Assembly: GCA_013287965.1 (NCBI GenBank)
Contig: JABDCU010000005.1
Location: 1 to 33,747 of the forward strand
DNA from: Candidatus Omnitrophota bacterium
GTDB lineage: Bacteria > Omnitrophota > Gorgyraeia > Zapsychrales > Fredricksoniimonadaceae
Direction of reading: 5' to 3'
DNA length: 33,747 bases
Shown: positions 6,986 through 33,104 of the stretch, piece by piece
Layout: each line of letters opens with the position of its first letter
Position numbering within the stretch: position 1 is the first letter of the stretch
Translations under genes and position numbers: made by a program
The notes under the pieces: generated by a model
Databases searched by the model: none
What the model was told of the DNA's origin: nothing
The model's input: only the letters and a program-made list of their open reading frames with translations

Positions 6986-7660
6986 TCAAGACTTATGAAG
7001 TCTGCGCGTGGTTTTCCGTTCCGTGTCCTTCTCCAAGACTAAATAATACTGATATGTCACGAAATCTTCCAGTAAATTAAAGCTCATCGCGTGCGCTATC
7101 TTTAAGATATTGGTGGCATCTATATTACGGCCAATGGCCTTGATCTTAAAACCGGTCTCAGCGAACATTTCTTTCATGCCTATAAAAGTAAAGAACCTCA
7201 AATGGGTCTTATCAAGGATGCCCTGTTGCGTGTAATCCCAATATCCGGTCAACAGCTGATAAATGACCCTGTAATGCCTGACATTAGGGATACTCACCAC
7301 CCAAACGCCATGGTCGTCCAGCAAGGGGCGCAATTTTTTTATCGTTTGCCATGGGTCCGCCAGATGCTCCAGCAGATCCAGGGTAATGATACAGTCAAAA
7401 TATTTATTATCAAAGGGCAGATTTAAAATATCAATGTTGCCTTCAATGACTTTATTGATGCGTTGCCTTGCTATTTGGGCGGATGCCTTGTCCATTTCAA
7501 CACCGGTGTATTCCACATCAGGATTTCTTTCCTTGATGGCTTTTCCAAAATTAGCTTCACCGCAGCCGATCTCAAGTATCTTTTTGGCGGAAGGCGGAAC
7601 AAGTGCCAACAGGTCCTTCCTTTCATATTGATAATACTGCCTGCCCTTTTCCAAGCTCAT
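6986..7660 (-). CDS. Class I SAM-dependent methyltransferase (methyltransf_11/23 type)
   Basis: ILEIGCGEANFGKAIKERNPDVEYTGVEMDK...FDCIITLDLLEHLADPW. ATG at 7660 (MSLEKGRQYY) gives an ATGA overlap with rfbB; the track start at 7711 is probably too long. Confidence 0.88.
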   Translation of the reverse strand: MSLEKGRQYYQYERKDLLALVPPSAKKILEIGCGEANFGKAIKERNPDVEYTGVEMDKASAQIARQRINKVIEGNIDILNLPFDNKYFDCIITLDLLEHLADPWQTIKKLRPLLDDHGVWVVSIPNVRHYRVIYQLLTGYWDYTQQGILDKTHLRFFTFIGMKEMFAETGFKIKAIGRNIDATNILKIAHAMSFNLLEDFVTYQYYLVLEKDTERKTTRRLHKS

Positions 7661-8652
7661 CTGCCGCCCCCCTGTTGACGATACGCGCCGCTCTTGGTCC
7701 GGGATATCCACTCAGGATGATCAACGTACCATTTGATCGTGCGTTTGATCCCGTCCGCGAAAGTGACCGCCGGCTCCCAGCCGAGTTCATTCTTGATCTT
7801 TACCGCGTCAATAGCATAGCGCCGGTCATGGCCCGGGCGGTCCTGTACAAAATTGATGAGACTCTCCGGCTTGCCTAATTCCTTGAGTATAAGCTTAACA
7901 ATATCAATATTACACCACTCATTATTGCCGCCGATATTATACACTTCCCCTATCTTGCCGTGATGAAGGACACGATCAATGGCAGCGCAATGGTCCTGCA
8001 CATAAAGCCAATCGCGCACATTTTTCCCGTCACCATAGACCGGCAAAGGCTTACCCGCAAGCGCGTTGACTATCATGAGAGGAACAAGCTTCTCGGGGAA
8101 TTGATACGCCCCATAATTATTAGAACAGCGCGTGATGATCGCCGGAAAACCGAATGTATGGTGATACGCATGCACCAAAAGATCTGCGCCTGCCTTGCTG
8201 GCTGAATAAGGGCTGTTAGGGGCAAGCGGCGAGTCTTCTGTGAAATAACCTGTGTCTCCCAAGTCCCCATAAACTTCATCCGTGGAAACATGGATAAAAC
8301 GTTCGATCCCGCAAGCCCTGGCATGGTCTAACAAAACCTGGGTACCTAAAGTGTTTGTCCTGGTAAAAACTTCCGGGCCTTCAATGCTGCGGTCCACATG
8401 CGATTCAGCCGCGAAGTGCACGACCTTTTGCGCCCGTTTCATCACTGCGGACACATCCGCGGCCGATGTAATGTCGCCACGGACGAATTCATAACGCCCA
8501 TTAGAAGCAATATCCTCAAGATTATCAGGATTACCCGCGTAAGTAAGCGCGTCAAAATTGATCACCCGGTAATCAGGATATTTATTAAGGACATGCCTGA
8601 TGAAATTCGTCCCGATAAACCCGCAGCCGCCTGTAACAAGAAGTTTATTCAT
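7657..8652 (-). CDS. rfbB: dTDP-glucose 4,6-dehydratase
   Basis: MNKLLVTGGCGFIGTNFIRHVLNKYPDYRVINFDALTYAGNPDNL, HVSTDEVYGDLG, SPYSASKAGAD. ATG at 8652 overlaps the rfbD stop (ATGA). Confidence 0.97.
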   Translation of the reverse strand: MNKLLVTGGCGFIGTNFIRHVLNKYPDYRVINFDALTYAGNPDNLEDIASNGRYEFVRGDITSAADVSAVMKRAQKVVHFAAESHVDRSIEGPEVFTRTNTLGTQVLLDHARACGIERFIHVSTDEVYGDLGDTGYFTEDSPLAPNSPYSASKAGADLLVHAYHHTFGFPAIITRCSNNYGAYQFPEKLVPLMIVNALAGKPLPVYGDGKNVRDWLYVQDHCAAIDRVLHHGKIGEVYNIGGNNEWCNIDIVKLILKELGKPESLINFVQDRPGHDRRYAIDAVKIKNELGWEPAVTFADGIKRTIKWYVDHPEWISRTKSGAYRQQGGGR

Positions 8653-9494
8653 AGAGATTGTGCCGCAAAAAATTCCAAATCTTCTTCCCACCTCGGGATA
8701 TCAAGCCCCAAGGTCTTGCCCAGAAGGCTACTGGACATCACCGAATAGCCGGGACGTTTGGTCTTAAGACCAAAAGAAAGCCGCGGCACAGGTATCACTG
8801 TTTTACCTTTGATCCCCTTCGCCTTCAAATAAGCAACAGTCAGTTCATAACGCGAGGCCTGGCCTGAATTCGTCAAATGGTATAATCCTTTAAGCCCTGT
8901 TTTTAAAGCACGATAAGACGTCTTGACGATGGTATCTGTGAATGTTGGGACAGATATCTCATCCTCCGCTATCTTCAACGTGTCAGATTTTTGGGCCCAT
9001 TGGTCAATATTATGCAAAAAGTTGCGCACCCCCCGGCCAAAGACCCAGCTTGTCCTGAAAACTAAATGATCAGCACTGGCTTGCAAGACTGCCTTTTCTC
9101 CCTCAAGTTTGCTTGCCCCGTACACGTTCAAAGGTCCGGTGAGGTCACCTTCCACATAAGGCGCGCCTTTGCGGCCATCAAACACATAATCTGTACTGAA
9201 ATGGACCATCCTGATCTTACGCTCTGCGCATATACCGGCGATCAAACGCGGGGCATCCCCATTAACAGCAAAGGCCAGCGAAGAATTATCTTCAGCTGCA
9301 TCCACCAAATTATACGCCGCGCAATTGATGATAAGGTCCGGCCGTACATCCTCTATGACTGCCCTTAAAGAATCCACTGAGGTAATATCACAGCCCTTAT
9401 GGTCCAAGGCCTGGCATGAAATGCCTTCCTGCTTAAAATAACGGACGAATGCCTCACCCAATTGTCCGCCGGAACCAAAAACAAGGATTTTCAT
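8649..9494 (-). CDS. rfbD: dTDP-4-dehydrorhamnose reductase
   Basis: MKILVFGSGGQLGEAFVRYF...DLIINCAAYNLVDAAEDN...FSTDYVFDG...YGASKLEGE. The track N-terminal extension (to 9575) encodes the palindromic repeat (VIPAKAGIHHR), so ATG at 9494 is preferred. Confidence 0.95.
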   Translation of the reverse strand: MKILVFGSGGQLGEAFVRYFKQEGISCQALDHKGCDITSVDSLRAVIEDVRPDLIINCAAYNLVDAAEDNSSLAFAVNGDAPRLIAGICAERKIRMVHFSTDYVFDGRKGAPYVEGDLTGPLNVYGASKLEGEKAVLQASADHLVFRTSWVFGRGVRNFLHNIDQWAQKSDTLKIAEDEISVPTFTDTIVKTSYRALKTGLKGLYHLTNSGQASRYELTVAYLKAKGIKGKTVIPVPRLSFGLKTKRPGYSVMSSSLLGKTLGLDIPRWEEDLEFFAAQSL

Positions 9495-9495
9495 T

Positions 9496-10086
9496 CTATG
9501 ATGGATTCCCGCTTTCGCGGGAATGACAATTTTTATAAAAGAAATTATTATCGGCAAGTTCCAATAATTTGCCATTCAAATCGCGCGGGGACAATACCGG
9601 GTCCTTTATAGGCCAATCAATATTGATCACGGGATCGTTCCATATGATATTGCGTTCCAATTCCGGCGCGTACTCCCGGGAACAGTAATACACAAATTCC
9701 GCCTCATCCGAAAGCACGCAATAACCATGGGCAAACCCGGCCGGGATAAAAAGCATGTGCCTGTTTTCCGCTGAAAGACGCTCTGCCACCCAATGCCCGA
9801 AGCTCGGGGACCCTTTGCGGATGTCCACCACCACATCAAAGATCTCGCCTTTCAATACAAAAACCAGCTTGTCCTGCGCTTTGGGGTCCATCTGATAATG
9901 CAGGCCCCTCAAGACGTTTTTCTTTGACATTGAACGGTTGACCTGAAGGAACGCGCCATTAATGCCGTTGGCTTTAAACTCGGATTCTTTATAAAGTTCG
10001 GAAAAAAATCCCCGCTCGTCGATAAATATTTTCGGCTCGATCAGGACAATGTCAGGGAGCCTGGTCTTTTTGAATTGAAAAGGCAT
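9496..10086 (-). CDS. rfbC: dTDP-4-dehydrorhamnose 3,5-epimerase
   Basis: FKKTRLPDIVLIEPKIFIDERGFFSELYKESEF...VLRGLHYQ...FIPAGFAHGYCVLSDEAEFVYYCSREYAPE...DLNGKLLELADNN. The last ~10 aa (CHSRESGNPS) come from the embedded repeat. Confidence 0.96.
   Translation of the reverse strand: MPFQFKKTRLPDIVLIEPKIFIDERGFFSELYKESEFKANGINGAFLQVNRSMSKKNVLRGLHYQMDPKAQDKLVFVLKGEIFDVVVDIRKGSPSFGHWVAERLSAENRHMLFIPAGFAHGYCVLSDEAEFVYYCSREYAPELERNIIWNDPVINIDWPIKDPVLSPRDLNGKLLELADNNFFYKNCHSRESGNPS
9503..9530. repeat. Short palindromic dispersed-repeat-like element (ATTCCCGC-TTTC-GCGGGAAT core)
   Basis: Perfect 8-bp inverted repeat at 9505-9512 / 9517-9524 with a 4-nt loop (GAAA on the minus strand). Its translations give the recognisable peptides VIPAKAGIH and CHSRESGNP, often seen at ORF ends in many genomes. 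Confidence 0.88.
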
Positions 10087-10087
10087 C

Positions 10088-10951
10088 TTATTCCTCAGCT
10101 ATCTTTTGCAAATATTCACCATAGGAAGTCTCGATCGCGCGCCCCAATAAACGCAGTTGTGCGCGGTCGATGTATTTCATCGTGTACGCGATCTCTTCAA
10201 TGCTGGCGACCTTAAGCCCCTGACGCTCTTCCACCGTCTTGATAAAAATAGACGCGTCGATCAGCGACTCAAAGGTCCCTGTATCGAGCCAGGCATACCC
10301 GCGGCCAAGACGTTCAACGTTCAATTTCCCTTGACGGAGATATTCATTATTAATGTCCGTGATCTCGATCTCCCCGCGGGCAGAGGGCTTGACCCCCTTG
10401 GCGATCTTAACGACCTTATTATCATAAAAATACAACCCCGTGACCGCCCAATTGGAACGGGGCGCTTTAGGTTTCTCCTCGATGGAAAGGGCCCTGCCTT
10501 TCGCGTCAAACTCAACAACGCCGTAACGCTGGGGATCTTTGACATAATAGCCAAAGACACAGGCCCCGTCCTTGAGTTTTGCGGCCTGTTGAAGTTTCTC
10601 CGAAAGCCCATGTCCAAAAAAGATATTGTCCCCCAACACCAGGGCGACACTGTCCTTGCCGATGAACGACTCTCCTACCATAAACGCGTCGGCAAGGCCG
10701 CGGGGCTTGGGCTGTTGGGCATAACTGATCTTCAGGCCAATACTGCTGCCGTCATGGAATAATTCCTTGAACTGCGCCAAAGCCTGGGGGGTGGAAATGA
10801 TCAGGATCTCGCGGATGCCTGCCAGCATTAATACCGACAAAGGATAATAGATCATCGGCTTATCATAAACCGGCAATAATTGTTTAGAAACAGCCTTAGT
10901 GATCGGGAACAACCTTTTGGCAGTCCCGCCGGCTAAAATGATCCCCTTCAT
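10088..10951 (-). CDS. rfbA: Glucose-1-phosphate thymidylyltransferase
   Basis: [56 protein letters not shown], full-length 287 aa. Confidence 0.97.
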
Positions 10952-11901: not shown

Positions 11902-13698
11902 TCAAGGACCCAATGCCCCTCTCAAAACCCCGCCCCACTCCTTTTCCCATTGGTCTGTTACGCGGCCAAACTCGGACAAAAACAACCTGCTGGCCTCCTG
12001 GCGTTGGGGCTGCTGCCACCAATCATCAACGCTTTCATAGATCTCTTCGATTTTCTTTGAAGCCTCCAGGGGACCATCATGGGCTATGCCAACGGCTTTA
12101 AGCCTGTTCCAATTTACCGCTGCCCTTTGATTAAAACGGTTCGCGGCAAAACGCGGGTTGGCAAAAAGAATGGCCGGCCTGTTATTGACCAATGATTCGA
12201 TAAAGGTTGTCGCGTAACAAGGATGGTCGCAAACCAAAAGGCCATAATCCCTTTCGCTAAAAGGCTTGGCCCATGTTTCAACCCTTACATCGGGAATAAT
12301 GTCCCTGTAGCGCTCTTTGTAGTCCATGCCGCCGTCTTCCCGATGCGGGCGTATCACCAAACGTTCTTTGACACCATTGGATAAATGGGACAGGAACAGG
12401 GACTGTTGGTCTGAATAATCCTTCCAGAAATCCGTGCTTATCGGATAACTCAACATGAACCTGTAAAAAATATTAGTCACATAAAGGATGTCATTTGACC
12501 CTTCATGGCCCTTGCTGTGCTTTTCTTTGATCAGTTTTGTCGCGGAAACAGCCTCGATCTTTGCATGGCAGTCATTCCTCGTCCACCCCCAGGAAAAAAA
12601 TTTATCAGTAAGGCCCAATTCATGTTCTTCCTGAAAGGAATATTCCAACATCCCATACGAGCCTCCATGCTGCACGCCCAGCAAAACAGTCTTGCTTTCA
12701 GCAGACTCTGCCGCGAACATCTTGAATCCCTCATCATAATACCACCCGACCGCGCTCATAATGGCCCTGGGAGGATGCATGCATTTTCGCCTGATATTGG
12801 CCCTATTGGCGGCAAACCCTTCCAGCATGGATTTAGGCAGACCCGAACTGATCATCGGCATCAGTATCTTTTCAAATTCAGTGTCACCAAATTTAATACC
12901 GGCAATCTTCTTGCGCATATCCTGGTTCACCGCAAGGCTTACGGGCATCTGCCCTTCTCTAATATAAGGTAAAAATTGCCCTTTCATTTTAAGTATTAAC
13001 TTAAGCAAGGCGGGTTTCTGGAAATAAATGCTTTCAAAAATAATTTTTTTTCTCTTCAAGGTCACCCTGTCAAGCAGCTCAACGATCAGGCAAGCTAACC
13101 GGGTGGCCATTTTTTTTTGTTTTGAAGAATAGACCATTTCAATATCTTGATCGTACTTGACCGCTGTTTTGGCCGTAGGGAATCTATACCCCAGAAAACC
13201 GAATAATTGGCTGTAGAGCTGAAGATTATACGGGTCACCTTTCATGAAATTGACAAACATGAGCGTGTCATCGGGAGCCACAAAACAACTTTCATCAAGG
13301 CAAGTGGTGGTGAAATCAGGATACCTTTGTTTTAAACTGATGACCTGGCTGTATTTGTCATGCAGGATGTGCAAATAATACAGGAACCAGGGGCCCAGCA
13401 CAATACGCCAATAGCGGGTTGAAAAATTTAACCCGTGAACATCGTTGAGAGCACCGGCCAATACCGGCAATAATTTTTCATAAACTTCCTGTAAATAATG
13501 GATGGTCTCAAATATTCTCTCCTCTTGTATCGCCGACGGGAGTGTTATGCCTGCCAACGGCCCCCAATAAGACCTTCGGGAATACCGTTTGCACCATTCC
13601 CCCAAAAACACCATCGGACGAGAAGTGTCCCAAAATCCTTCCAGGGCGGTGGTGGCAGCAAAATGTCCGGAAACCTTTTTTTTATGGTCAGCGTTCAA
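11902..13698 (-). CDS. LIC12162-family surface-carbohydrate transferase-like protein
   Basis: 598 aa; N-terminus LEGFWDTSRPMVFLGEWCKRYSRRSYWGPLAG and C-terminus DYGLLVCDHPCYATTFIESLVNNRPAILFANPRFA resemble the LIC12162 family found in spirochete-type surface glycan loci. TTG start with an 11-bp overlap of the upstream gene. Confidence 0.75.
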   Translation of the reverse strand: MNADHKKKVSGHFAATTALEGFWDTSRPMVFLGEWCKRYSRRSYWGPLAGITLPSAIQEERIFETIHYLQEVYEKLLPVLAGALNDVHGLNFSTRYWRIVLGPWFLYYLHILHDKYSQVISLKQRYPDFTTTCLDESCFVAPDDTLMFVNFMKGDPYNLQLYSQLFGFLGYRFPTAKTAVKYDQDIEMVYSSKQKKMATRLACLIVELLDRVTLKRKKIIFESIYFQKPALLKLILKMKGQFLPYIREGQMPVSLAVNQDMRKKIAGIKFGDTEFEKILMPMISSGLPKSMLEGFAANRANIRRKCMHPPRAIMSAVGWYYDEGFKMFAAESAESKTVLLGVQHGGSYGMLEYSFQEEHELGLTDKFFSWGWTRNDCHAKIEAVSATKLIKEKHSKGHEGSNDILYVTNIFYRFMLSYPISTDFWKDYSDQQSLFLSHLSNGVKERLVIRPHREDGGMDYKERYRDIIPDVRVETWAKPFSERDYGLLVCDHPCYATTFIESLVNNRPAILFANPRFAANRFNQRAAVNWNRLKAVGIAHDGPLEASKKIEEIYESVDDWWQQPQRQEASRLFLSEFGRVTDQWEKEWGGVLRGALGP

Positions 13699-14854
13699 AG
13701 GGCGCGTCCAATTGTTTTAAGACCAGTTCCCTGGCAAATTCATGAGGCGGTCTTGAATCATTATTCATCATATACGCGGCCGTGTCCTTTGTCTGACGGC
13801 GATACTCCTCATCGTCCATGGCCCTCAAATAGTCCAATTTCTCTTTAAACAGCCCATAGTTTTGTTCATTGATGGACCAAAACCCCGGACATGGAAAATC
13901 GAATTGGGCGTCCCCTGAAAGATTACAAGACATCACCTTTGCTCCCCACCCAAAGGCCTCGCGGGCAAGGGTCGAATAAAAAGAGACTGTCACCGCGCTA
14001 CGGTCCACCGCGTCATAAGATGTCATCCGTTCCCTATTGCCTTTGATAAGGGTGACCTGATCACCGTATTGGTTTAAAAAATATTTTCCTTCTTTCTTAT
14101 TATCGTAACGCAGGGCAACGCAAAGGCTTACCTTTTCCTCTTTAATATAACGGTTGAGAAAATGGTCAAGGACAATAATGCCCTGCCTGGAGGTGGGCAT
14201 GATCTTGCCTGAAAGGATCTTCTCATCCCATTCTGAGATCAAACATAGATCAAATTCACGCTTCGGCGCTGCCTTTGATACAACCGATTTATAATACCTG
14301 GCCTTCAGGGAACCCCGCGGATAATACTTGTCAATGGTGTGTCCGCACGCGCTGAATAGATCAGCATCAAATTGGCCAAAACAGATCAGCATGGGCATGG
14401 AAATAATGCTGCCCGGCTGAGGCACCGGCGGAAGATACTCTGTGATGCTTGCCCGGTTGCGCGCGCCATTTTGAATGGCGATGAATTGCGCGTCCTTATG
14501 GATCCGGCTGATCAATTGAAAAGGATAGCTGTTATCGATCAAGGTGATCACGACCAGGGGCCGCATATTCTGAAGGCAGGCCAATAAATAAACACGGTAC
14601 AAGCTGCCCAATAATTGCCTTAAAAATTTTATTAAATGGCGGCTGGTCTGGCCATGACGCATTGCCTTCATATATTTCAGATTTTTCAAGGTACAGGACA
14701 CTATCTGGGGCGTTATATAAAACATTTCGTACCTGGAATGAAGGACAGCATGGTCAAGGCCCCTCAAGACCATTTTTTCAAGGACTTCACTGCCGGCGTT
14801 ATCAAATATAACAAGCCGGTTTTGAGGGGGATTGGTGAATTTGATATTGATCAT
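13688..14854 (-). CDS. Surface carbohydrate biosynthesis protein (possible GT-B-like); paralog of 19048-20205
   Basis: 388 aa; clearly homologous along its length to the 385-aa product of 19048-20205 (MINIKFTNPPQNRLVIFDNAGSEVLEKMVL vs MASIKFTNPKKSQVVIFDTTGSEALGKMVL; YSTLAREAFGWGAKVMSCNLSGDAQFDFPCPGFWS vs FSTLAREAFGWGAKVLSCNFSGDAQFDFPCQGFWS). Confidence 0.7.
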   Translation of the reverse strand: MINIKFTNPPQNRLVIFDNAGSEVLEKMVLRGLDHAVLHSRYEMFYITPQIVSCTLKNLKYMKAMRHGQTSRHLIKFLRQLLGSLYRVYLLACLQNMRPLVVITLIDNSYPFQLISRIHKDAQFIAIQNGARNRASITEYLPPVPQPGSIISMPMLICFGQFDADLFSACGHTIDKYYPRGSLKARYYKSVVSKAAPKREFDLCLISEWDEKILSGKIMPTSRQGIIVLDHFLNRYIKEEKVSLCVALRYDNKKEGKYFLNQYGDQVTLIKGNRERMTSYDAVDRSAVTVSFYSTLAREAFGWGAKVMSCNLSGDAQFDFPCPGFWSINEQNYGLFKEKLDYLRAMDDEEYRRQTKDTAAYMMNNDSRPPHEFARELVLKQLDAPFER

Positions 14855-18335: not shown

Positions 18336-19040
18336 TTATTTTCTTTTCGGACCACCTAATATTTTTTTCTTCATAAAATAGCCGCACAATTCCACATCCG
18401 GCATTTCATCTATCTCATAAGACTGCCAAAACGGCATCACGTACGCCGCGATCTTGCCTCCCAGGCGGTTACGGGACTTTCTTAACACTGATGGTTTAAA
18501 AACATAGATCGAACCATTCTCCAGGAATAACGGGTCCCGCTCCTGGCGGCGGCCGCGGTTGCGGTAATCAAAGGTCAGACTTTCCAATTTACTTCCCTTT
18601 TTTTTCCACAAACAAAAATCCCCCAAGACAGCCGCGGAAAACAATGAATCGGCTTTTTGGGAAATAAGCGCCTTAATGGCCCCATCAATGTCCCCGGATG
18701 TCCTTAAAGGCGATGTCGCCTGTAAAAAAACCATCAGGTCAACTTTTTTGCGCTGACCGGCTTCGATCTCATCCAAGGCATGCAGCAAGGCATCTTCCGA
18801 CGAGGCCTTGTCCCCCGCGATCGCCTTGGGCCTAAGAATGGCCTTGGCCCCGGCCTTTTGGGCGACACTCAAGATCTCATCACTGTCCGATGACACAAAA
18901 ACACTGCTAATGGACCGGCTTTGCCTGGCTTGTTGGATCGACCAAACTAACAAGGGTTTCCCGCAAAAATCAATAAGGTTTTTGCGCGGGATCACCTTGG
19001 ACCCGCCCCGCGCCGGAATAATAGCCACGATATTCATCAT
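18336..19040 (-). CDS. neuA: Acylneuraminate (CMP-nonulosonate) cytidylyltransferase
   Basis: MNIVAIIPARGGSKVIPRKNLIDFCGKPLLVWSIQQA...VSSDSDEIL...FLQATSPLRTSGDIDGAI...LENGSIYVF. Symbol denotes family; exact substrate unknown. Confidence 0.9.
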   Translation of the reverse strand: MMNIVAIIPARGGSKVIPRKNLIDFCGKPLLVWSIQQARQSRSISSVFVSSDSDEILSVAQKAGAKAILRPKAIAGDKASSEDALLHALDEIEAGQRKKVDLMVFLQATSPLRTSGDIDGAIKALISQKADSLFSAAVLGDFCLWKKKGSKLESLTFDYRNRGRRQERDPLFLENGSIYVFKPSVLRKSRNRLGGKIAAYVMPFWQSYEIDEMPDVELCGYFMKKKILGGPKRK

Positions 19041-19047
19041 GCCCCTC

Positions 19048-20205
19048 TCAATGAGCGTCCAATTGTTTTAAGACCAGTTCCCTGACAAATTCGTACGAAG
19101 GCTTGGCCCTATTATTCATGATATACTCCGCGCAGGCCTTTGTCTGACGGAGATACTCCTCATGGCCCATGGTCCTGATATGGTCCAACTTTTTTTTGAA
19201 CGATCCGTATTCACATTCATCCATGGACCAAAACCCCTGGCATGGAAAATCAAATTGGGCGTCCCCTGAGAAATTACAGGACAAGACCTTGGCCCCCCAT
19301 CCAAAGGCCTCACGGGCAAGGGTCGAGAAAAAAGCGACCGTTACCCCGCTGCGGTCCACCGCGCCATAAGAGGACATCTGTTCCCTGTTGGCCTTGATCA
19401 GGGTGATCCGGTCACCGTATTTATTTAAAAAATATTCTTCTTCCTTTTTATTATCGTAACGCAGGGCAACGCAAAGGCTGGTCTTTTGTTCCTTGACATA
19501 ACGGCTGAGAAAATCATCCAAGGTCACCATGGCTTTCCTGACACTGTGCATCTGTTTTCCCGAAAGGGTCTCTTCATCCCATTCTGAGATCAAACACAGG
19601 TCAAATTCAGACCCAAGATTTTGTTTGGATAAAAAAGATTTATAATACCTGGCCTTCAGTGAACCTCCGGGATAGTAAGTGTCAATTTGATGGGCATGCT
19701 CTTTGAACAGCTCCACATCATTCATGCCGAAACAGACCAGCAAGGGCATGGATATAATACTGCCCGGCTGGGGGAACGGCGGCCGGGAATCTTTCAGGCA
19801 GTCCCGGATCCGTGAGCCGTTTTGGATGGCGATGAATTGCGCGTCCTTATAGATCCTGCTGATCAATTGGAAAGGATAACTATTATCGACAAAGGTGATC
19901 ACGGCTTTAGGATGCATATACTGGATACAAGCCAGTAAATAAAGACGGTACAAGCTTCCCAATAATTTCTTTAAAGATTTTACCGGGTCGCGATCGGTCT
20001 GCCCATAACGCATCGCTTTGATATGCTTTAAATTGCTTAAAATACCGAATAATATCCGGGGCGTTATATACAGCACTTCGCGCCTGGAATGAAGGACAAC
20101 ATGGTCAATGCCTTCCAGGACCATTTTGCCAAGGGCCTCACTGCCGGTGGTGTCAAATATGACGACCTGGCTTTTCTTGGGATTAGTGAATTTGATGCTG
20201 GCCAT
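19048..20205 (-). CDS. Surface carbohydrate biosynthesis protein (possible GT-B-like); paralog of 13688-14854
   Basis: 385 aa, colinear with the 13688-14854 product; DNA similarity is also evident (e.g. 13903-13985 vs 19248-19330). Confidence 0.7.
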   Translation of the reverse strand: MASIKFTNPKKSQVVIFDTTGSEALGKMVLEGIDHVVLHSRREVLYITPRILFGILSNLKHIKAMRYGQTDRDPVKSLKKLLGSLYRLYLLACIQYMHPKAVITFVDNSYPFQLISRIYKDAQFIAIQNGSRIRDCLKDSRPPFPQPGSIISMPLLVCFGMNDVELFKEHAHQIDTYYPGGSLKARYYKSFLSKQNLGSEFDLCLISEWDEETLSGKQMHSVRKAMVTLDDFLSRYVKEQKTSLCVALRYDNKKEEEYFLNKYGDRITLIKANREQMSSYGAVDRSGVTVAFFSTLAREAFGWGAKVLSCNFSGDAQFDFPCQGFWSMDECEYGSFKKKLDHIRTMGHEEYLRQTKACAEYIMNNRAKPSYEFVRELVLKQLDAH

Positions 20206-20207
20206 GT

Positions 20208-22058
20208 TTATTTTTTGATCTCCTGCTCTAAAATGTGATTAAGCTCCCGGATCAGATGGCCAACGGACTTTTCATTTAAACCGTGGAACCTGGCCCCTTG
20301 AATGATGTTTTCCTGATACCCTTTGTTACAACTGCCGCAATATAACCCATACCGCCTTAAAACATGTTCCACATGGTCATTCTTATCGATCAGGTCGGCA
20401 ATGCTGGTGTTCTTATTGATCGGTAAAAGGCCCGCGGCGCGTAAAGAGGGCATCTGTTTTTTATAATAAGGGGCCTGTAAAAGGCGCCAAAAGGCGGCAT
20501 GAAAGACATCCGGGTCGCGGTCGAATTCACACCAGTAGCCGATGGTGGCCTCGTCCCATGAGAGATCATCCTGTATCAAATGGCCCAAGACTTGCCGGGG
20601 AATAATAATATGGAGATTGGCCTTGGAGCCGGCATCAATAAGGTCCAAACGGCCGTCCTGTATCTTAAAATCAAGAGAAAACATTTCTTTTCCCTGATAC
20701 TCCTGTAAAACAGTCATCCTGACACAAATGTTTTCACAAAAAATGATCTCAGGGACGTCATTAAACTTTAACAAATAATCGCGGAGCTGTTTTTCATTGA
20801 CCGTGCGGCCGACCGGATAAAACCGATCAAATATCTCTTGTTTATAAACAGCATCGATATATTCCCTGACCACCTCGGGCCGGTAAAGCATCCGACGTTT
20901 GGAAACGGAATAATTCCTGTGAAAACGTCCTGTTTGGCTCTTCCAGGATTCCCCTGGCAGCAGATCAATGACCAGGAATTTTTCTTTCCGGAACTCATCT
21001 TTAATTTCCATGACACTATTTTCATGCACGGACCTATCGTACTGTCGGTGCTGAGGGTGCCATAACCTGAAATGTGAGGCAAAGGGCAGCAGGGCCTTGG
21101 CCCTGTAAAGCTTGACGGCCTTCTTCATCATTAATTTCACGCCGCTTTTCGATCTCTCATAAAAAGCATCCTTTTGCTCAGGGGTCAAATGCCGCCAGGT
21201 CAGCGGATAACCCGATGCATTGATAGAAAATCCGCTCATCAGGACATCAATGGGCGGCAGTAATTTAGCGATCTTATTATTAACGCCCGCGTCATTGATA
21301 TTAAGGACATGAAAATCATGGATGCTTATCAAAACAATGGAATCATTCCAAAGGCTTTCCGGCTCATAAACAGTCAGGGAAACAGCGTCATTGAATTTGT
21401 ACGTTTGACCAAACGCCAATGGACGAAGATCTGTAAACCCTGATTTTTTTAAAATTCTGGATATTCTTTGGTTGGGGAAAGCAGGGAATAAGATCGGGGT
21501 TGAACGGTCAAAGTGTTTCAAGGTATTTTCATGCAAATGATCGGAATGTTCATGGGATATCCAAATAGCTGACGGGTGAAGGTCCTCTATTTTCCCTTGA
21601 AATCCCGGATACTGCAGCCAAGCCCCCATGAATGCCGGACCCAAAAGCCATGGGTCTGTAAGGATTGAAAAATCCTCATGACGAATCTCCACACAAGCAT
21701 GAGAATGCAAAATAAACTCAACGGCCCTGTCCATTTTCTGCTGACTTTCAAAATCCGAGTTAGCTGTGGGAAATAAAGCCATATCAACGAATAATTCATT
21801 GTCTTTAATGACGACCGGCATCCCTTTAAGCCCTTGTCCCTTGATATTAACGGCCTGGCCATTCAAATGAAACTTCCATCCATGCGCGGGACACTCAAAA
21901 TGGTCCCCTGCCAGGGCCACATCTCCCCCCATGTGAGGGCAGATATTGGACAGCAAAGAGTATTGCTCACCCTCTTTGACCAAAAAATATTCCGATTTAT
22001 CCAACCGGATGGGCGCGGGCAGACGTTTAAAATTGTTAATGTTCCCTAAAGACCGCAT
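20208..22058 (-). CDS. CMP-N-acetylneuraminate hydroxylase (CMAH)-like Rieske/metallo-beta-lactamase-fold oxygenase with a C-terminal CxxC (DUF1858-like) domain
   Basis: Rieske motif CPHMGGDVALAGDHFECPAHGWKF; MBL motif SHEHSDHL; CMAH-like blocks DPWLLGPAFMGAW, ASGYPLTW and LSWDEATIGYWCEFDRDPDVFHAAFW; C-terminus NTSIADLIDKNDHVEHVLRRYGLYCGSCNKGYQENIIQGARFHGL resembles DUF1858 redox-disulfide domains. Confidence 0.85.
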   Translation of the reverse strand: MRSLGNINNFKRLPAPIRLDKSEYFLVKEGEQYSLLSNICPHMGGDVALAGDHFECPAHGWKFHLNGQAVNIKGQGLKGMPVVIKDNELFVDMALFPTANSDFESQQKMDRAVEFILHSHACVEIRHEDFSILTDPWLLGPAFMGAWLQYPGFQGKIEDLHPSAIWISHEHSDHLHENTLKHFDRSTPILFPAFPNQRISRILKKSGFTDLRPLAFGQTYKFNDAVSLTVYEPESLWNDSIVLISIHDFHVLNINDAGVNNKIAKLLPPIDVLMSGFSINASGYPLTWRHLTPEQKDAFYERSKSGVKLMMKKAVKLYRAKALLPFASHFRLWHPQHRQYDRSVHENSVMEIKDEFRKEKFLVIDLLPGESWKSQTGRFHRNYSVSKRRMLYRPEVVREYIDAVYKQEIFDRFYPVGRTVNEKQLRDYLLKFNDVPEIIFCENICVRMTVLQEYQGKEMFSLDFKIQDGRLDLIDAGSKANLHIIIPRQVLGHLIQDDLSWDEATIGYWCEFDRDPDVFHAAFWRLLQAPYYKKQMPSLRAAGLLPINKNTSIADLIDKNDHVEHVLRRYGLYCGSCNKGYQENIIQGARFHGLNEKSVGHLIRELNHILEQEIKK

Positions 22059-22078: not shown

Positions 22079-23038
22079 CTAACAGCCCTGACACGCCAAA
22101 CACATCGGGTTTCTGTCATGCAGCAGGTCGTCCCGGACCTTGATCATCTTGTCCCCTGCCCAAGCCTCTGCCAGCGACATTGTTTCAAAGTTCCCGAGTT
22201 TAAGCATTTTCCCGTAAAAAGTGCAGCAAGGCAGGATGTCCCTGTTGGCAAAAATGGCCAGCCGGCGGAAAGGGTCATTGCAATTGAACTGTTTTGGTTT
22301 TTTCCCGCCGGTAAAATCCTGGAAATGTTTGCGCAGGTGCATGTCAACAATTTCAACCCTCTCTTGCCAAAACGCTAAAAAATCTTTTTCTTCATGTTTA
22401 TTCCCATCCATCTCAACGAAGGAAACCCGCATGATAGGAAGGAGGCTCTTGCGCCGCTGTTTCTCCTTTAAGATCAAAAGCACATTATCCACGACCTTTT
22501 GGTATAATCCGTTTCCCCTCAACGCCAGATAGGTCTCTTTGGAGAAAGCATCGATCGAAGTAAAAAGATGCACCAGGCCGGAATCAAAGATCTCATCAAC
22601 ATATTTATGCAATAACAGGCCGTTGGTAATGACGCGGGAATCCATCCCGCCTATCGCGTGGAATTCCTTGATGACAGGGAAACAACGGTTGTCCAACAGC
22701 GGTTCTCCGATCGATATGTTGATGGACGGCAAAGCCATTTCTTTGGCTTCCCTAAAGAATTTTTCCAATATAGTATCGGACAACTTCGCTTTGGTGTTGA
22801 TCGTGTAAGGAAGGTCGGGATGTTCCTCCGTGTTCCGCGGGCAAAAAACGCAGGACTCATTGCAGGAATCAACCAACTCCAGATCCACATGCAAAGGGGC
22901 CGTTAACAGATGGTCCGGCCCTGCTTTAGTCCAGGATTCCCGGTATTCCCTATAACGTTTCCCGAAAGTTTCAGCCAAGCGCTCTTCCAAATCATCAGCC
23001 TGGTTACGGATCACACCGCCTGACATTATTTTTTCCAT
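22079..23038 (-). CDS. Radical SAM protein with SPASM-like C-terminus
   Basis: LELVDSCNESCVFCPRNTEEHPDLPY contains CxxxCxxC; C-terminal cysteines ILPCCTFYGKMLKLGNF...NPMCLACQGC fit an auxiliary cluster region. Confidence 0.88.
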   Translation of the reverse strand: MEKIMSGGVIRNQADDLEERLAETFGKRYREYRESWTKAGPDHLLTAPLHVDLELVDSCNESCVFCPRNTEEHPDLPYTINTKAKLSDTILEKFFREAKEMALPSINISIGEPLLDNRCFPVIKEFHAIGGMDSRVITNGLLLHKYVDEIFDSGLVHLFTSIDAFSKETYLALRGNGLYQKVVDNVLLILKEKQRRKSLLPIMRVSFVEMDGNKHEEKDFLAFWQERVEIVDMHLRKHFQDFTGGKKPKQFNCNDPFRRLAIFANRDILPCCTFYGKMLKLGNFETMSLAEAWAGDKMIKVRDDLLHDRNPMCLACQGC

Positions 23039-23050
23039 ATATCCTCTCCT

Positions 23051-23533
23051 TTAAAAAACTTTACGAAGTTCCATGAGGGTAAAATAACCGTCCCCATGTT
23101 TCTCTCTGCCAACCGGACAAAACCCGGTACTTTCAAAGCAGCGCAAAGAAGCTTTATTGTCTTCTTTAATTAGGGCCTTTAAAACTTTTACTTCGGGCAA
23201 AAAAAAGATCTTTTGACTTGTTTGCTTAAGCGCCTGGGCACCCAGGCCTTTGCCCCGATGGCCGTCATTAATGGCCATGCTCACCAAGGCACCATCATGC
23301 TTTAGATCATAACGCACCTGGCCGACGGGAACACCGTTGTCCAAGATGATAAAAAGCTTCACGTCATTGCGCTGCAATGTCTCTTTAAACCACTCCAAAT
23401 GCTCCTGGCGCCCGACACTGCGCGCCTGGATAGATTGGGAACAGACCAAAGGATCATTACGCAATGACAAAAGAAATTCCGCGTCTTCCCAAACGGCAGA
23501 GCGCAATGTGATCTGCGCCGGCAATTTATTCAT
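23051..23533 (-). CDS. GNAT N-acetyltransferase, PseH-like
   Basis: MNKLPAQITLRSAVWEDAEFLLSLRNDPLVCSQSIQ...HLEWFKETLQRNDVKLFIILDNGVPVGQVRYD...VSMAINDGHRGKGLGAQALK...NKASLRCFESTGF. ATG at 23533 overlaps the pseI stop by 8 bp (ATGAATAA). Confidence 0.85.
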   Translation of the reverse strand: MNKLPAQITLRSAVWEDAEFLLSLRNDPLVCSQSIQARSVGRQEHLEWFKETLQRNDVKLFIILDNGVPVGQVRYDLKHDGALVSMAINDGHRGKGLGAQALKQTSQKIFFLPEVKVLKALIKEDNKASLRCFESTGFCPVGREKHGDGYFTLMELRKVF

Positions 23534-24575
23534 CAATGATGCCCCATGTGACCGGCTCTCCGCGGCCAACCGCTTTCTTTAACCTTTTACCTAACACCTT
23601 TCCTATTTCTTTGGGTGCCAGGCCATGGCCTGGCCTGATAACACGGATATTTTCCGCGGTAACAACATCCCCTTGCCTCATTTCTTTAACAAAAAATAAT
23701 GACCTACGGAATTTTAAACTGCCCTTCTCCGATGCTGCTGGGCCATAAGAGGCCTGTCCTATGGAGGACTCCGCCAAACGGATATCATTGACCAATCTAT
23801 GCAACTGCCCTGATGATAAAGAAAACGCCGCGTCAGGGCTTTGGTCTGTATCAGAAGATTTAAAATGTTTTTCAATGATATTGGCACCTAAGGCGACCGC
23901 AGCAATGGATGAGACGCTGTCAGTGGTATGGTCTGAGAGGCCTGTCACCACATCAAACTGCCTGCGCATGTCCATGATCTGTGCCAAGTTCATCTCTTGC
24001 GGTTTCGCCGGATACGCGCTCACACAATGAAGAAGGGCCAAATTTTTGGTCCCATGCCCGCGTAATACATCCACCGCGTGGCGTATCTCCTGCAAGGAAG
24101 CCATGCCGGTGGACATGATCACCGGCTTTCCCGTCTGCGCGACCTTTTTTAACAAAGGATCATCCACTAATTCAAATGAAGCAATTTTATACGCGGGGAC
24201 ATCCAATGTTTCCAAGAAGTCTACCGCCGTCTCATCAAAAGGCGTTGAAAAAAAGTGCAGGCCTATCCTTTCCGCATCTTCTTTTAAAGGCTTGTGCCAT
24301 TCCCAGGGGGTTTGAGCTTGCTTGTACAACTGATACAAGGTCTTGTCCTTCCAAAGAGGATGGTCTATATGAAAATATTCATTATTGCAATCAATGGTCA
24401 TGGTGTCCGGCGTATACGTCTGGAGCTTAATGGCATCAGCCCCTGCTTCTTTGGCAGACCTCACCATGGCCATTGCTTTTTCAAAAGACCCGCCATGGTT
24501 CGCGGACATCTCCGCGATCACATAACAAGGCTGCCCCGTGCCGATGGCCCTATTTTTTATTTTAAACTCCGGCAT
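23526..24575 (-). CDS. pseI: Pseudaminic acid synthase (NeuB family with SAF domain)
   Basis: CYVIAEMSANHGGSFEKAMAMVRSAKEAGADAIKLQTYTPDTMTIDC...FSTPFDETAVDFLE...KIASFELVDDPLL; C-terminal SAF-type segment RRSLFFVKEMRQGDVVTAENIRVIRPGHGL. Confidence 0.94.
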   Translation of the reverse strand: MPEFKIKNRAIGTGQPCYVIAEMSANHGGSFEKAMAMVRSAKEAGADAIKLQTYTPDTMTIDCNNEYFHIDHPLWKDKTLYQLYKQAQTPWEWHKPLKEDAERIGLHFFSTPFDETAVDFLETLDVPAYKIASFELVDDPLLKKVAQTGKPVIMSTGMASLQEIRHAVDVLRGHGTKNLALLHCVSAYPAKPQEMNLAQIMDMRRQFDVVTGLSDHTTDSVSSIAAVALGANIIEKHFKSSDTDQSPDAAFSLSSGQLHRLVNDIRLAESSIGQASYGPAASEKGSLKFRRSLFFVKEMRQGDVVTAENIRVIRPGHGLAPKEIGKVLGKRLKKAVGRGEPVTWGIIDE

Positions 24576-27638: not shown

Positions 27639-28973
27639 TTATGCGATCCGTTTAAATCCCGACGCGGATGGCTCGCCTTTAAGCGAGCCCCTCAAGCTGC
27701 CGTTGTCTTTGGACAGCTTGATGCGCCCGAATACATCATCCACCGCGGCTAAATAAGCGCTGACGTTTTCCCTGCTATGCGCAAACATGGAATAAAAAAG
27801 ATTCGACGCTAAAAACCCTTCTGCCAGCATTTCCTGCACGAAAAAGGCTTTCATGACCAAATGATCAGGGTCATCAAAAACAAAATGGCTTAGCGGATAT
27901 ATCCCTGAAACCTTGACCGCCAGGCCATGGCGCTGGCCTGCTTGCTGCCAGCCTTCCTGAACCAATTTTCCGATCGCCATCAGGTGCTCGTGGGCCCTGA
28001 CCGCTTGAAATTTTTTGATCATGGCCAGCGCTGCCGCCGGGCCGATGCTCTCCGTCCACATGGTACTGCTGATAAAAGTTTTTTGCGCTGACTCCATGAC
28101 AGCAGAACGGCCGATAATAGCGGCAATAGGATAGCCATTGCCTAACGACTTGGAAAAGACCGCGATGTCAGGGTCAACCCCGTAAAGAAGATGCGCCCCA
28201 CCGCAATTCATGCGAAAGGCCGATGATATCTCATCGAAAATGAGCACAGCACCTGCCTCATCCGCCAGTTTACGCACGCCCTGCAAAAATCCCGCGACAG
28301 GCTGGGCATTGCGTACCGGCTCCATGACAATGGCCGCGATCTTGGTTTTATTTGCTGCTGCTATTTTTTGCAAACCAGCAAGGTCATTATAACTAAAAAC
28401 CAGGGTCGTCCCTTTAAGTGCCTGCGGCACACCCGCCGGGCTTAAGCCGGGGATAAGATGCTCACCCAAAGCATTCTCAGTGCCGACATTCGCGGCTAAA
28501 TACCAGTCATGCCAGCCGTGATAGCCGCAGACCACCACGAGATCGCGATCGGTATGCGCCCGCGCGATGCGCACCGCGATGGCCATGGACTCACCTCCGC
28601 CGCGCGCAAAACGCGCCATCTGTCCCCAAGGATGCAAACGGCATAATTCTTCTGCCAACTCCACCTCAAAGGGAGAGTTCAATGAACAGCTCGAGCCATT
28701 GCGAACAGCCTGCATCACCGCCGCATCCACATCAGCATCAGCGTAGCCAAGCACATTGGCCCCGATACCGCCGATACTCATATCAATATAAACATTGCCG
28801 TCCAAATCCCAAACTTTTACACCTTGGGCTTTGCTGTAATACGACGGCCATACCCCCAACGAGAACATGTCCGGACGCTTGGACAAAAGCTGTGCCATGC
28901 CCGGAATGAATTGCCTGGCTTTTTTTTGCATCAGCTGTGATTTACTATTTTCCATTAAATATCCTTGGGTCAC
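27639..28973 (-). CDS. Class III PLP aminotransferase, glutamate-1-semialdehyde 2,1-aminomutase-like
   Basis: MARFARGGGESMAIAVRIARAHTDRDLVVVCGYHGWHDWYLA...LIFDEISSAFR...VFSKSLGNGYPIAAIIGR (PLP lysine region). GTG start with a GTGA overlap, or ATG at 28955. Confidence 0.9.
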   Translation of the reverse strand: MTQGYLMENSKSQLMQKKARQFIPGMAQLLSKRPDMFSLGVWPSYYSKAQGVKVWDLDGNVYIDMSIGGIGANVLGYADADVDAAVMQAVRNGSSCSLNSPFEVELAEELCRLHPWGQMARFARGGGESMAIAVRIARAHTDRDLVVVCGYHGWHDWYLAANVGTENALGEHLIPGLSPAGVPQALKGTTLVFSYNDLAGLQKIAAANKTKIAAIVMEPVRNAQPVAGFLQGVRKLADEAGAVLIFDEISSAFRMNCGGAHLLYGVDPDIAVFSKSLGNGYPIAAIIGRSAVMESAQKTFISSTMWTESIGPAAALAMIKKFQAVRAHEHLMAIGKLVQEGWQQAGQRHGLAVKVSGIYPLSHFVFDDPDHLVMKAFFVQEMLAEGFLASNLFYSMFAHSRENVSAYLAAVDDVFGRIKLSKDNGSLRGSLKGEPSASGFKRIA

Positions 28974-30121
28974 CCTAAAACAGCGGCGATCACTTTCTCA
29001 ACATCCTTATCTTTCATCGCCGGAAAAAGAGGCAGGGAAAGGCACTGCTCATAATATTTTTCCGCCTGGGGAAATGCTCTTCCCGCGACCTTAAAATTCC
29101 GGGAATAAAAAGGCTGGCGGTAAACCGGTATATAATGCACCTGTGACCCGACGCCTAAGGCAGCCAAGCTTTCCATGAACACCCGACGGGACATCCGCAA
29201 TTTCTTAAAGTCTATCCGGACAACATACAAATGATGCGCGCATGAAGGACCATCACCTGCCAGGGGCCGCAGCCAGGAAAGCCCCTTAAAAGCTTTATTG
29301 TACCTGGCAACGATCGCCCTGCGGCGAAGAAGAAAGCGGCCTATTTTTTTTAATTGGCTAAGCCCCAAGGCCGCCTGGATGTCCGTCAAACGGTAATTAA
29401 ACCCAAGTTCCTGCATTTCGTAATACCATGGGCCCGGAACATTTTTCATTAACGCAGGACCGCGTACAATACCATGTGAACGCAGTGAACACAACCGGTC
29501 GTAAAGCCCCTTATCATTGGTCATCACCGCTCCACCCTCACCGGTGGTGATCATCTTGACAGGATGGAAAGAAAAGGTGGTCATGTCAGCATAAGCGCAA
29601 TTGCCGACACGCCCGCCGTCAGGATAACGGCTGCCGATGGCGTGCGCGGCATCTTCGATGACAAAGGACTTTTTGCTTGCGGCGATGGCAGCTATTTCTT
29701 TCATGGCCGCCGAACGTCCCGCAAAATGCACAGGAATGATGACCCGTGTGTCCTTGCCGACCGCGCGGGCCAACGCTGCTAAAGACATATTGGCCGTGAC
29801 TGGATCAATGTCCGCGAAAACAGGTTTGATCCCGTTATAAACCAAGGCATTGGCCGATGCCACAAAGGTGATGGGCGATGTGATGCCGCTGCTGCCTTTT
29901 TTAAGTCCCAACGCCGCCACCGCCAGATGGAGTGCTGCCGTGCCGTTGGCCACTGCCACGGCGTATTTAGCACCCGTATATGTGCATAAGGCGCGCTCAA
30001 ATTCTGCAACTAAAGGTCCCTGCGTTAAAAAAGGGCTTCTTAATGCCCGCGTCACCGCCGCTACGTCGCTGTCATCAATGCTCTGCCTGCCATAGGGCAA
30101 TGTCCCTGACTTTTTAACCAT
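28970..30121 (-). CDS. pseC: UDP-4-amino-4,6-dideoxy-N-acetyl-beta-L-altrosamine transaminase-like DegT/DnrJ/EryC1 aminotransferase
   Basis: LPYGRQSIDDSDVAAVTRALRSPFLTQGPLVAEFERALCTYTGAKYAVAVANGTAALHLAVAALG...ITSPITFVASANALVYNG...FSFHPVKMITTGEGG. ATG at 30121 overlaps the pseB stop by 8 bp (ATGGTTAA). Confidence 0.94.
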   Translation of the reverse strand: MVKKSGTLPYGRQSIDDSDVAAVTRALRSPFLTQGPLVAEFERALCTYTGAKYAVAVANGTAALHLAVAALGLKKGSSGITSPITFVASANALVYNGIKPVFADIDPVTANMSLAALARAVGKDTRVIIPVHFAGRSAAMKEIAAIAASKKSFVIEDAAHAIGSRYPDGGRVGNCAYADMTTFSFHPVKMITTGEGGAVMTNDKGLYDRLCSLRSHGIVRGPALMKNVPGPWYYEMQELGFNYRLTDIQAALGLSQLKKIGRFLLRRRAIVARYNKAFKGLSWLRPLAGDGPSCAHHLYVVRIDFKKLRMSRRVFMESLAALGVGSQVHYIPVYRQPFYSRNFKVAGRAFPQAEKYYEQCLSLPLFPAMKDKDVEKVIAAVLG

Positions 30122-31127
30122 ACTTAATGTCCTGCGCACCCGGAGCTTTGATCATGGCACGCAATTGTTCTATGGTCAGCTGCTCCTTGTTAAGATCACT
30201 GCGGTACACAAAACCATCCGGCAGTCCCGGCACATCTTTATATTTATTCCCCGCGAAATTCCCGACACTGGCGAATTGGGGAAGGACGATATAATGCTTG
30301 GGGAATTCGACTGACTTGCGCGCCTCATCTTCAGAGACCAGGGTCTCGTGGATCTTTTCACCCGGCCGGATCCCGACATGCTTAAAAGTGCAGTTCGGCT
30401 CTATGGCGCGGGCCAGGTCAGTCACGCGCATGGAAGGGATCTTGGGGATAAAGATCTCCCCGCCCACCCCATCAGCCAATGCCTTAAGCACCAGCTCAAC
30501 GCCCTGGTCCAGGGTTATCCAGAAACGCGTCATGCGTTCATCGGTGATGGGAAATTCCTTGAGGCCCTTGTGCTTTAATTCCATGAAAAAAGGCACAACG
30601 CTTCCCCGGGAACCGACCACGTTGCCGTAACGCACGGCGGAAAATTTTGTCCGCCCACCGCCGTAAGCATTGGCCGCGATAAAAAGTTTTTCAGCCACCA
30701 GCTTAGTGGCGCCATAAAGATTGGCCGGACTGACTGCCTTGTCCGTTGACAACGCGATCAATTTCTTGATCCCCACGTCAATGGCCGCGTCAACGACATT
30801 GTTCGCTCCGTCAACATTCGTACGGACCGCTTCCGTCGGGTTATATTCCAGCGCGGGAACCTGTTTGAGGGCCGCGGCGTGCACCACATAATCAACACCT
30901 TCAAAAGCCCGATGCAGGCGGCCCTTGTCACGGACATCACCGATAAAATAACGTATCGCCGGGTATTCTTTTTCAGAGAAGAGCTTGGACATTTCATGCT
31001 GTTTGTATTCGTCACGGCTGAAAATGATCAGCCGCTGGGGCTTATAGGATTTGAACACCATTTCCGTGAACTTATGCCCGAAAGAACCTGTGCCGCCGGT
31101 GACCAGGATAGATTTCCCGTTAAGCAT
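30114..31127 (-). CDS. pseB: UDP-N-acetylglucosamine 4,6-dehydratase (inverting)
   Basis: MLNGKSILVTGGTGSFGHKFTEMVFKSYKPQRLIIFSRDEYKQHEMS...HAAALKQVPALEYNPTEAVRTNVDGANNV...STDKAVSPANLYGATKL. ATG at 31127 (8-bp overlap ATGCTTAA); the track N-terminal extension to 31331 reads through the HAD gene in another frame. Confidence 0.96.
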   Translation of the reverse strand: MLNGKSILVTGGTGSFGHKFTEMVFKSYKPQRLIIFSRDEYKQHEMSKLFSEKEYPAIRYFIGDVRDKGRLHRAFEGVDYVVHAAALKQVPALEYNPTEAVRTNVDGANNVVDAAIDVGIKKLIALSTDKAVSPANLYGATKLVAEKLFIAANAYGGGRTKFSAVRYGNVVGSRGSVVPFFMELKHKGLKEFPITDERMTRFWITLDQGVELVLKALADGVGGEIFIPKIPSMRVTDLARAIEPNCTFKHVGIRPGEKIHETLVSEDEARKSVEFPKHYIVLPQFASVGNFAGNKYKDVPGLPDGFVYRSDLNKEQLTIEQLRAMIKAPGAQDIKYG

Positions 31128-31431
31128 TGCTCCCCCCCTTAAAAAATTCGTCCGCGTTTTTGGATTTGTCGTCAATATGGATATCGTACATCGGCTTGCC
31201 GAAATGCAATTCATGGTAAAGGGCCCCCCATTGTTGCAATTGCTTTTGGGTGGTCTCTTTCCAGTCGATGCCGGTCGTGGATCCCCGGGCCGTAAAAAAT
31301 AAGATCGTATGGCCTTGTTGGTACAATGCATTGACCTCTTTTATACGTTTTAAAAACGGCTGGGCCAAATGGTACTCACCTTCCGTGTTCGTACAGATCG
31401 TCCCATCAATGTCAAAACAATATCTCACCAA
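31120..31431 (-). CDS. Small HAD-superfamily protein (capsule biosynthesis type phosphatase)
   Basis: 103 aa: YCFDIDGTICTN (motif I), ILFFTARGS (motif II), HFGKPMYDIHIDDKS (motifs III/IV). Start TTG at 31431 or GTG at 31428 (GTGA overlap). Confidence 0.85.
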   Translation of the reverse strand: MVRYCFDIDGTICTNTEGEYHLAQPFLKRIKEVNALYQQGHTILFFTARGSTTGIDWKETTQKQLQQWGALYHELHFGKPMYDIHIDDKSKNADEFFKGGSNA

Positions 31432-32240: not shown

Positions 32241-33104
32241 TCAACCCTTTCCGATCACTTTTTTATGTTCCCCGCCGATATGGGCCCGCAGTTTCTGGCT
32301 GATGGACACTTCTTTTTCATGAAAACCAAGGACACCGTTACCCATGGCTTTTTCGATCTTACGGACCGCTCCCACCAGCATCCGTAAGCCGGAGGGTTCC
32401 AAAGAAGCGGCCTGGTCAGAACCATACATGGCCCGGGAGAGTGTGATGTGCCTCTCCAATGAAGTGATCCCGAGTGCTGCCGCGGCATAGGAAACAGCAA
32501 TGCCCACTTCATGCCCGCTGTAACCGACATCGCATTTATACCTGTCCTTTAACGTTTTGATACAATTCAAATTCGCGTCCTCATCTTCCATGGGGTACAC
32601 GGAAACACAATGCATCAGTTCATACGGGCATTTGGCTTCCTTGAAAATGGCAACCGCCTCGTCGATATGTTCAGGTTCAGTCATGCCCGTGGAAATAAAC
32701 GTGTGCCGGCCTTCGGAAGCGATCTCCTTAAGCAAGGCCTTGTCAACGATCATGGCTGAAGCCACCTTGTTATATTTCAGTTTAAATTGACGCAAGAACT
32801 TCTGGCTGGGAATGTCCCAGGCGGAGGCCAGCCATTCTATCCCGATCTGGCGGCAATACCGGTCTATTTCCTCATATTCCTTTTGGCCGAATTCCAGCCC
32901 TTCTTTTTGCTGCCGCTGGGTCGTGCCCCAAGGGCTTTCGCGGGGAGAATCAAGGAGTTCCTTGGAATAAACCACGTCAATGGTCCTCTTCTGGAACTTG
33001 ACCGCGTCACAGCCGGCTTCTTTGGCCACGTCGATCAATTGCTTGGCGATATCCATCTGGCCGTTGTGATTGATCCCGATCTCCGCGATAAAAAAAATTG
33101 CCAT
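32241..33104 (-). CDS. NeuB-family nonulosonate synthase lacking the C-terminal SAF domain
   Basis: FFIAEIGINHNGQMDIAKQLIDVAKEAGCDAVKFQKRTIDVVY...LASAWDIPSQKFLRQFKLKYNKVASAMI...YSGHEVGIAVSYAAAALGITSLERHITLSRAMYGSDQAASLEP; 287 aa, ending shortly after the barrel. Strong SD (AGGAGGG) upstream at 33105-33118. Confidence 0.92.
   Translation of the reverse strand: MAIFFIAEIGINHNGQMDIAKQLIDVAKEAGCDAVKFQKRTIDVVYSKELLDSPRESPWGTTQRQQKEGLEFGQKEYEEIDRYCRQIGIEWLASAWDIPSQKFLRQFKLKYNKVASAMIVDKALLKEIASEGRHTFISTGMTEPEHIDEAVAIFKEAKCPYELMHCVSVYPMEDEDANLNCIKTLKDRYKCDVGYSGHEVGIAVSYAAAALGITSLERHITLSRAMYGSDQAASLEPSGLRMLVGAVRKIEKAMGNGVLGFHEKEVSISQKLRAHIGGEHKKVIGKG

Follow-up and report, generated by a model that had tools for sequence, protein, structure and literature searches.

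A CMAH-like Rieske/MBL protein with an added DUF1858 domain in a pseudaminic acid operon of a Candidatus Omnitrophota bacterium

The window analysed here, a 33,747-nucleotide stretch of contig JABDCU010000005.1 from a Candidatus Omnitrophota bacterium, outlines a locus that belongs to a long surface-polysaccharide cluster and includes a pseudaminic acid operon. Its core genes, all on the reverse strand, encode the PseB 4,6-dehydratase (30114-31331; TIGR03589, 493.8 bits, cut-off 407.75), the PseC aminotransferase (28970-30139; TIGR03588, 493.7 bits, cut-off 423.5) and the pseudaminic acid synthase PseI (23526-24575; TIGR03586, 467.6 bits, cut-off 340.25). The synthase gene lies three genes upstream of the gene under study (20208-22058, reverse strand). 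The two genes between them, also on the reverse strand, encode a PseH-like GNAT acetyltransferase (23051-23569; TIGR03585, E 6e-10, below cut-off) and, directly upstream of the gene under study, a radical SAM/SPASM protein without a specific family above cut-off (22079-23038). Downstream on the same strand are genes for an LA_1612-family O-antigen biosynthesis protein (19048-20205; TIGR04441, E 8e-22, below cut-off) and for a PseF-like cytidylyltransferase involved in CMP activation (18336-19040; TIGR03584, E 8e-37, below cut-off; Pfam CTP_transf_3). The latter is the neuA-like gene that the original prediction had placed two genes downstream, and all these genes are closely packed. Synthase and cytidylyltransferase genes bear out the predicted nonulosonate operon, with the refinement that it is of pseudaminic and not of neuraminic type, PseB, PseC and PseI all scoring above their curated cut-offs. 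In this genome, which is about 70% complete, PseG returned only weak partial matches below cut-off and NeuC returned no match.

Several other genes were observed in the same locus. They include a second NeuB-family synthase (32241-33104, reverse strand), nearer to NeuB_NnaB than to PseI and below cut-off, two methyltransferases, a LIC12162-family transferase above cut-off (11902-13698), a paralogue of the aforementioned LA_1612-family protein (13688-14854, reverse strand), likewise below cut-off, and a set of dTDP-rhamnose-type genes of the NTP transferase, dehydratase, epimerase and reductase families (7657-10951, reverse strand).

The gene at 20208-22058 is a complete open reading frame with an ATG start and a plausible ribosome-binding sequence (GGGGAG) upstream, and it encodes a protein of 616 aa presenting, from N- to C-terminus, a Rieske, an MBL and a DUF1858/TIGR03980 domain. 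The Rieske [2Fe-2S] domain (aa 14-75, positions 21834-22019; Pfam PF00355, E 1.4e-9, with Rieske matches in PDB) retains all four ligands intact (C40, H42, C56 and H59, in the motif C40-P-H42...C56-P-A-H59). The UlaG/CmlA-like MBL domain (aa 118-274, positions 21237-21707; Pfam Lactamase_B_3, PF13483, E 1.7e-7) contains a DPW motif, the SHxHxDH motif (residues 168-174), D239 and an N-x-N-D256 motif. Both the CPH...CPAH and SHEHSDHL (residues 168-175) motifs on which the original prediction drew are hence present, as is the redox-type domain it described as added. This domain lies at the C-terminus (aa 547-607, positions 20238-20420), carries a CGSC instance of the CxxC motif and matches the solved DUF1858 protein 2k5e in PDB (E 2.5e-5). 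The Pfam protein scan located DUF1858 at aa 547-595 with an E-value of 1.2e-6 and a score of 28.9 bits, below the Pfam cut-off of 32.2, which the 33.0 bits obtained in a genome-wide search exceed; the latter search returned this domain as the sole DUF1858 match of the genome. The TIGR03980 redox disulfide model also matched it (E 1.2e-8), yet below its own cut-off. AlphaFold2, run on the single sequence with no alignment, gave no informative model of the protein (pLDDT 35).

The original prediction also identified several blocks resembling animal CMP-Neu5Ac hydroxylase (CMAH). Searches of prokaryote, phage and plasmid collections and of PDB did not return any CMAH sequence, and the reference used for comparison was not a database entry, so that the match reported here is a checked lead and not a database match. 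The reference sequence was checked at three published positions only, and for its length. Cat P122 and codon 90 (c.268T>A) (PMC4865243) and dog R185 (PMC6842231) all fit it with the same constant offset of two, and its length agrees with the published length of the chimpanzee enzyme (590 aa); cat V48 found no clean match. Against this reference, the 616-aa protein aligned collinearly over residues 23-528 (about 506 residues) with 24% identity, 111 bits and a pairwise E-value of 4e-30. In the comparison with shuffled sequences it scored 118 bits, far above chance, as the maximum over 200 shuffles was 23.5 bits. Separate matches were obtained for the Rieske (31.6 bits), MBL (77.0 bits) and C-terminal (40.4 bits) parts, the last of these corresponding to a block at aa 490-528 (positions 20475-20591) that holds LSWDEATIGY...DRDPDVFHAAFW and scores 13.5 bits against the N-acetylmuramic acid hydroxylase NamH. 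The resemblance to animal CMAH thus extends along the protein and includes the C-terminal block, and in a comparison of 15 family members the two proteins are each other's best match. Taken by itself, the MBL part lacks specificity for CMAH, since an MBL-only relative (L002) scores 84.0 bits against the 77.0 of CMAH. The C-terminal block was likewise rejected as a feature unique to CMAH, as similar blocks can be seen by eye in MBL-only relatives.

In a tree built with the Rieske part removed, the 616-aa protein paired with the reference CMAH with support values of 87/93, which are not decisive given that both branches are long, and NamH grouped with sequences from Halolamina, L004, L009 and L016. 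Forced groupings of the 616-aa protein with NamH (p-AU 0.032) and with L002 (p-AU 0.026) were both disfavoured, and a joint clade of the protein, CMAH and NamH was not rejected (p-AU 0.104). When CMAH was omitted, the tree did not resolve the placement of the protein.

Conservation of the active site was assessed across 13 relatives, in which D135, P136, W137, S168, H169, H171, D173, H174, D239, N255 and D256 are invariant. All of these except N255 are shared with the reference CMAH, and D239 is a putative metal ligand. The 616-aa protein retains all of its Rieske ligands and of the family-invariant putative metal ligands, and it has its Rieske and MBL ligands in common with CMAH. In PDB searches with the family profile, the diiron MBL monooxygenases CmlA (E 5e-15) and 8A90 (E 1e-14) ranked first, above hydrolases (2e-9 or worse). 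The ligand set of MBL oxidoreductases, such as flavo-diiron proteins, has been described as more acidic (PMC7785958).

No second Rieske-MBL protein was detected in 82 other genomes of the order, and samples of the phylum and of the class returned MBL-only relatives but no Rieske-MBL protein. Searches with the 616-aa protein did not return any relative in a collection of genome contigs, and none was found in viral contigs or phages; in plasmids the matches were limited to MBL-only proteins and NamH. A Rieske-pattern scan with the 616-aa protein and CMAH pointed to two loci (L013 and L014), in which the matches do not reach into any MBL domain. A distant MBL-only relative of the CMAH/NamH MBL domain (L009) was located at L037:7097-8392 on the reverse strand, in another genome of the phylum, inside a pseudaminic operon containing PseB, PseC, PseG, PseI, an aminotransferase and an aldo/keto reductase; used as a query against a sample of the phylum, it returned one further genome only. 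No Rieske motif was detected in the ORFs neighbouring the L037 gene, so that in that operon the MBL family might serve a function other than redox chemistry. Further MBL-only relatives have DegT aminotransferase and Gfo/Idh oxidoreductase genes nearby (L034 and L036), and one on a haloarchaeal plasmid (L012:4983-6326) lies near sugar genes (DUF354 and a nucleotide sugar dehydrogenase). The CMAH-like gene may have been gained horizontally together with the surface-sugar locus.

On balance, we favour by a modest degree a CMAH-type, O2-dependent hydroxylase whose target is an N-acyl group carried by an activated sugar of pseudaminic type, and we regard oxygenase chemistry in general as more likely than the exact substrate. 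Such sugars have two N-acyl positions, at C5 and C7. The narrower proposal of a bacterial CMP-pseudaminic acid N-acyl hydroxylase yielding N-glycolyl pseudaminic acid, with the built-in CxxC domain supplying or gating electrons, is put forward more tentatively. Under the favoured reading, a CMAH-type oxygenase would have been recruited into the pseudaminic acid operon. The Rieske [2Fe-2S] cluster, possibly with help from the CxxC domain at the C-terminus, would be the entry point for electrons and would pass them to a putative non-heme iron centre within the MBL domain, where O2 would be activated and the methyl of the N-acyl group hydroxylated. The likeliest substrate would be CMP-Pse5Ac7Ac, and the presumed order of steps would lead to an N-glycolyl derivative (+16 Da) that would then be moved onto a surface glycan. 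O2 chemistry is plausible in this organism, because its genome holds a COX1 gene (438.5 bits) that resembles the one for subunit I of cytochrome c oxidase. CMP-Neu5Ac, the substrate of the animal enzyme, is unlikely here given that the operon is for pseudaminic acid and that no NeuC was found in the roughly 70% complete genome. The original interpretation hence retains its CMAH-type architecture and homology, its added redox domain and its nonulosonate operon, with the sugar corrected to a pseudaminic type.

A Rieske-MBL oxygenase of the same pathway might alternatively act elsewhere than on the N-acyl methyl of CMP-Pse, whether on a UDP-sugar that precedes the PseI step, on a carbon of the ring, or on the other nonulosonate made with the second NeuB-like synthase, and to this we assign a minor share of the probability. 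The second NeuB-like gene (32241-33104) and both methyltransferases share the locus, and NamH, whose substrate is a peptidoglycan amino sugar, illustrates that the family can also act on sugars without CMP; against this, N-acetyl methyls are the targets of both CMAH and NamH, and pseI and the pseF-like gene lie on either side of the CMAH-like gene. It is improbable that the MBL domain performs a hydrolase or other non-redox step, for instance replacing a missing PseG, with the Rieske domain in a structural or regulatory role. The lack of a PseG above cut-off in the incomplete genome and the MBL-only relative in another Pse operon are in line with such a role, but the L037 operon carries a PseG of its own, the family profile favours diiron oxygenases over hydrolases, and intact Rieske ligands accompany a second redox domain. 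A NamH-like muramic acid hydroxylase found by chance in a surface-sugar locus is very improbable, and plain NamH identity was rejected, since the shared domain families and the 60.5 bits to Rhodococcus NamH are set against an opposite domain order, the disfavoured forced grouping and an operon for nonulosonate rather than peptidoglycan.

Homologues of CMAH have already been reported from algae and from bacteria (PMC8227644), so the mere presence of a CMAH-like gene in a bacterium is no novelty. Neu5Gc has been stated not to be naturally synthesised by prokaryotes (PMC7845648), and N-glycolyl groups have been described as rare, with Neu5Gc and N-glycolylmuramic acid as the main examples (PMC6481270). 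A limited literature search did not return any description of N-glycolyl pseudaminic acid, nor of a Rieske-MBL protein in a pseudaminic acid operon or combined with DUF1858. If the enzyme works as proposed, its product would extend the known N-glycolyl sugars by a third class, based on a sialic-acid-like sugar that bacteria make, and the protein would bear on the origin of CMAH; the pseudaminic operon, moreover, points to a concrete, testable substrate.

The two characterised enzymes of this type, CMAH (PMC4819959) and NamH (PMC10050696), both convert an N-acetyl into an N-glycolyl group on an amino sugar. CMAH presents an N-terminal Rieske domain followed by the MBL domain and the C-terminal block, the same order as in the 616-aa protein, which differs in its additional C-terminal DUF1858 domain and in residing in a pseudaminic rather than a neuraminic operon, in a genome without a NeuC match. 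NamH, the mycobacterial N-acetylmuramic acid hydroxylase, is a bacterial MBL and Rieske enzyme (PMC10050696) that shares both domain families with the 616-aa protein and is 31% identical to it over 158 aligned positions of the MBL domain; its order is reversed, with the MBL domain N-terminal and the Rieske domain C-terminal, it falls on a separate part of the tree, and it functions in the synthesis of peptidoglycan. In the MBL domain, the PDB entries that the family profile matches best are CmlA and other diiron monooxygenases of the MBL fold; no Rieske domain is noted for these, unlike for the 616-aa protein, and the substrates of CmlA and FrsH are carrier-bound amino acids (PMC7794379). Lastly, the DUF1858/TIGR03980 proteins 2k5e and 2k53 have the CxxC motif and its flanking sequence in common with the C-terminal domain described here, which, unlike them, is fused to a Rieske-MBL protein.
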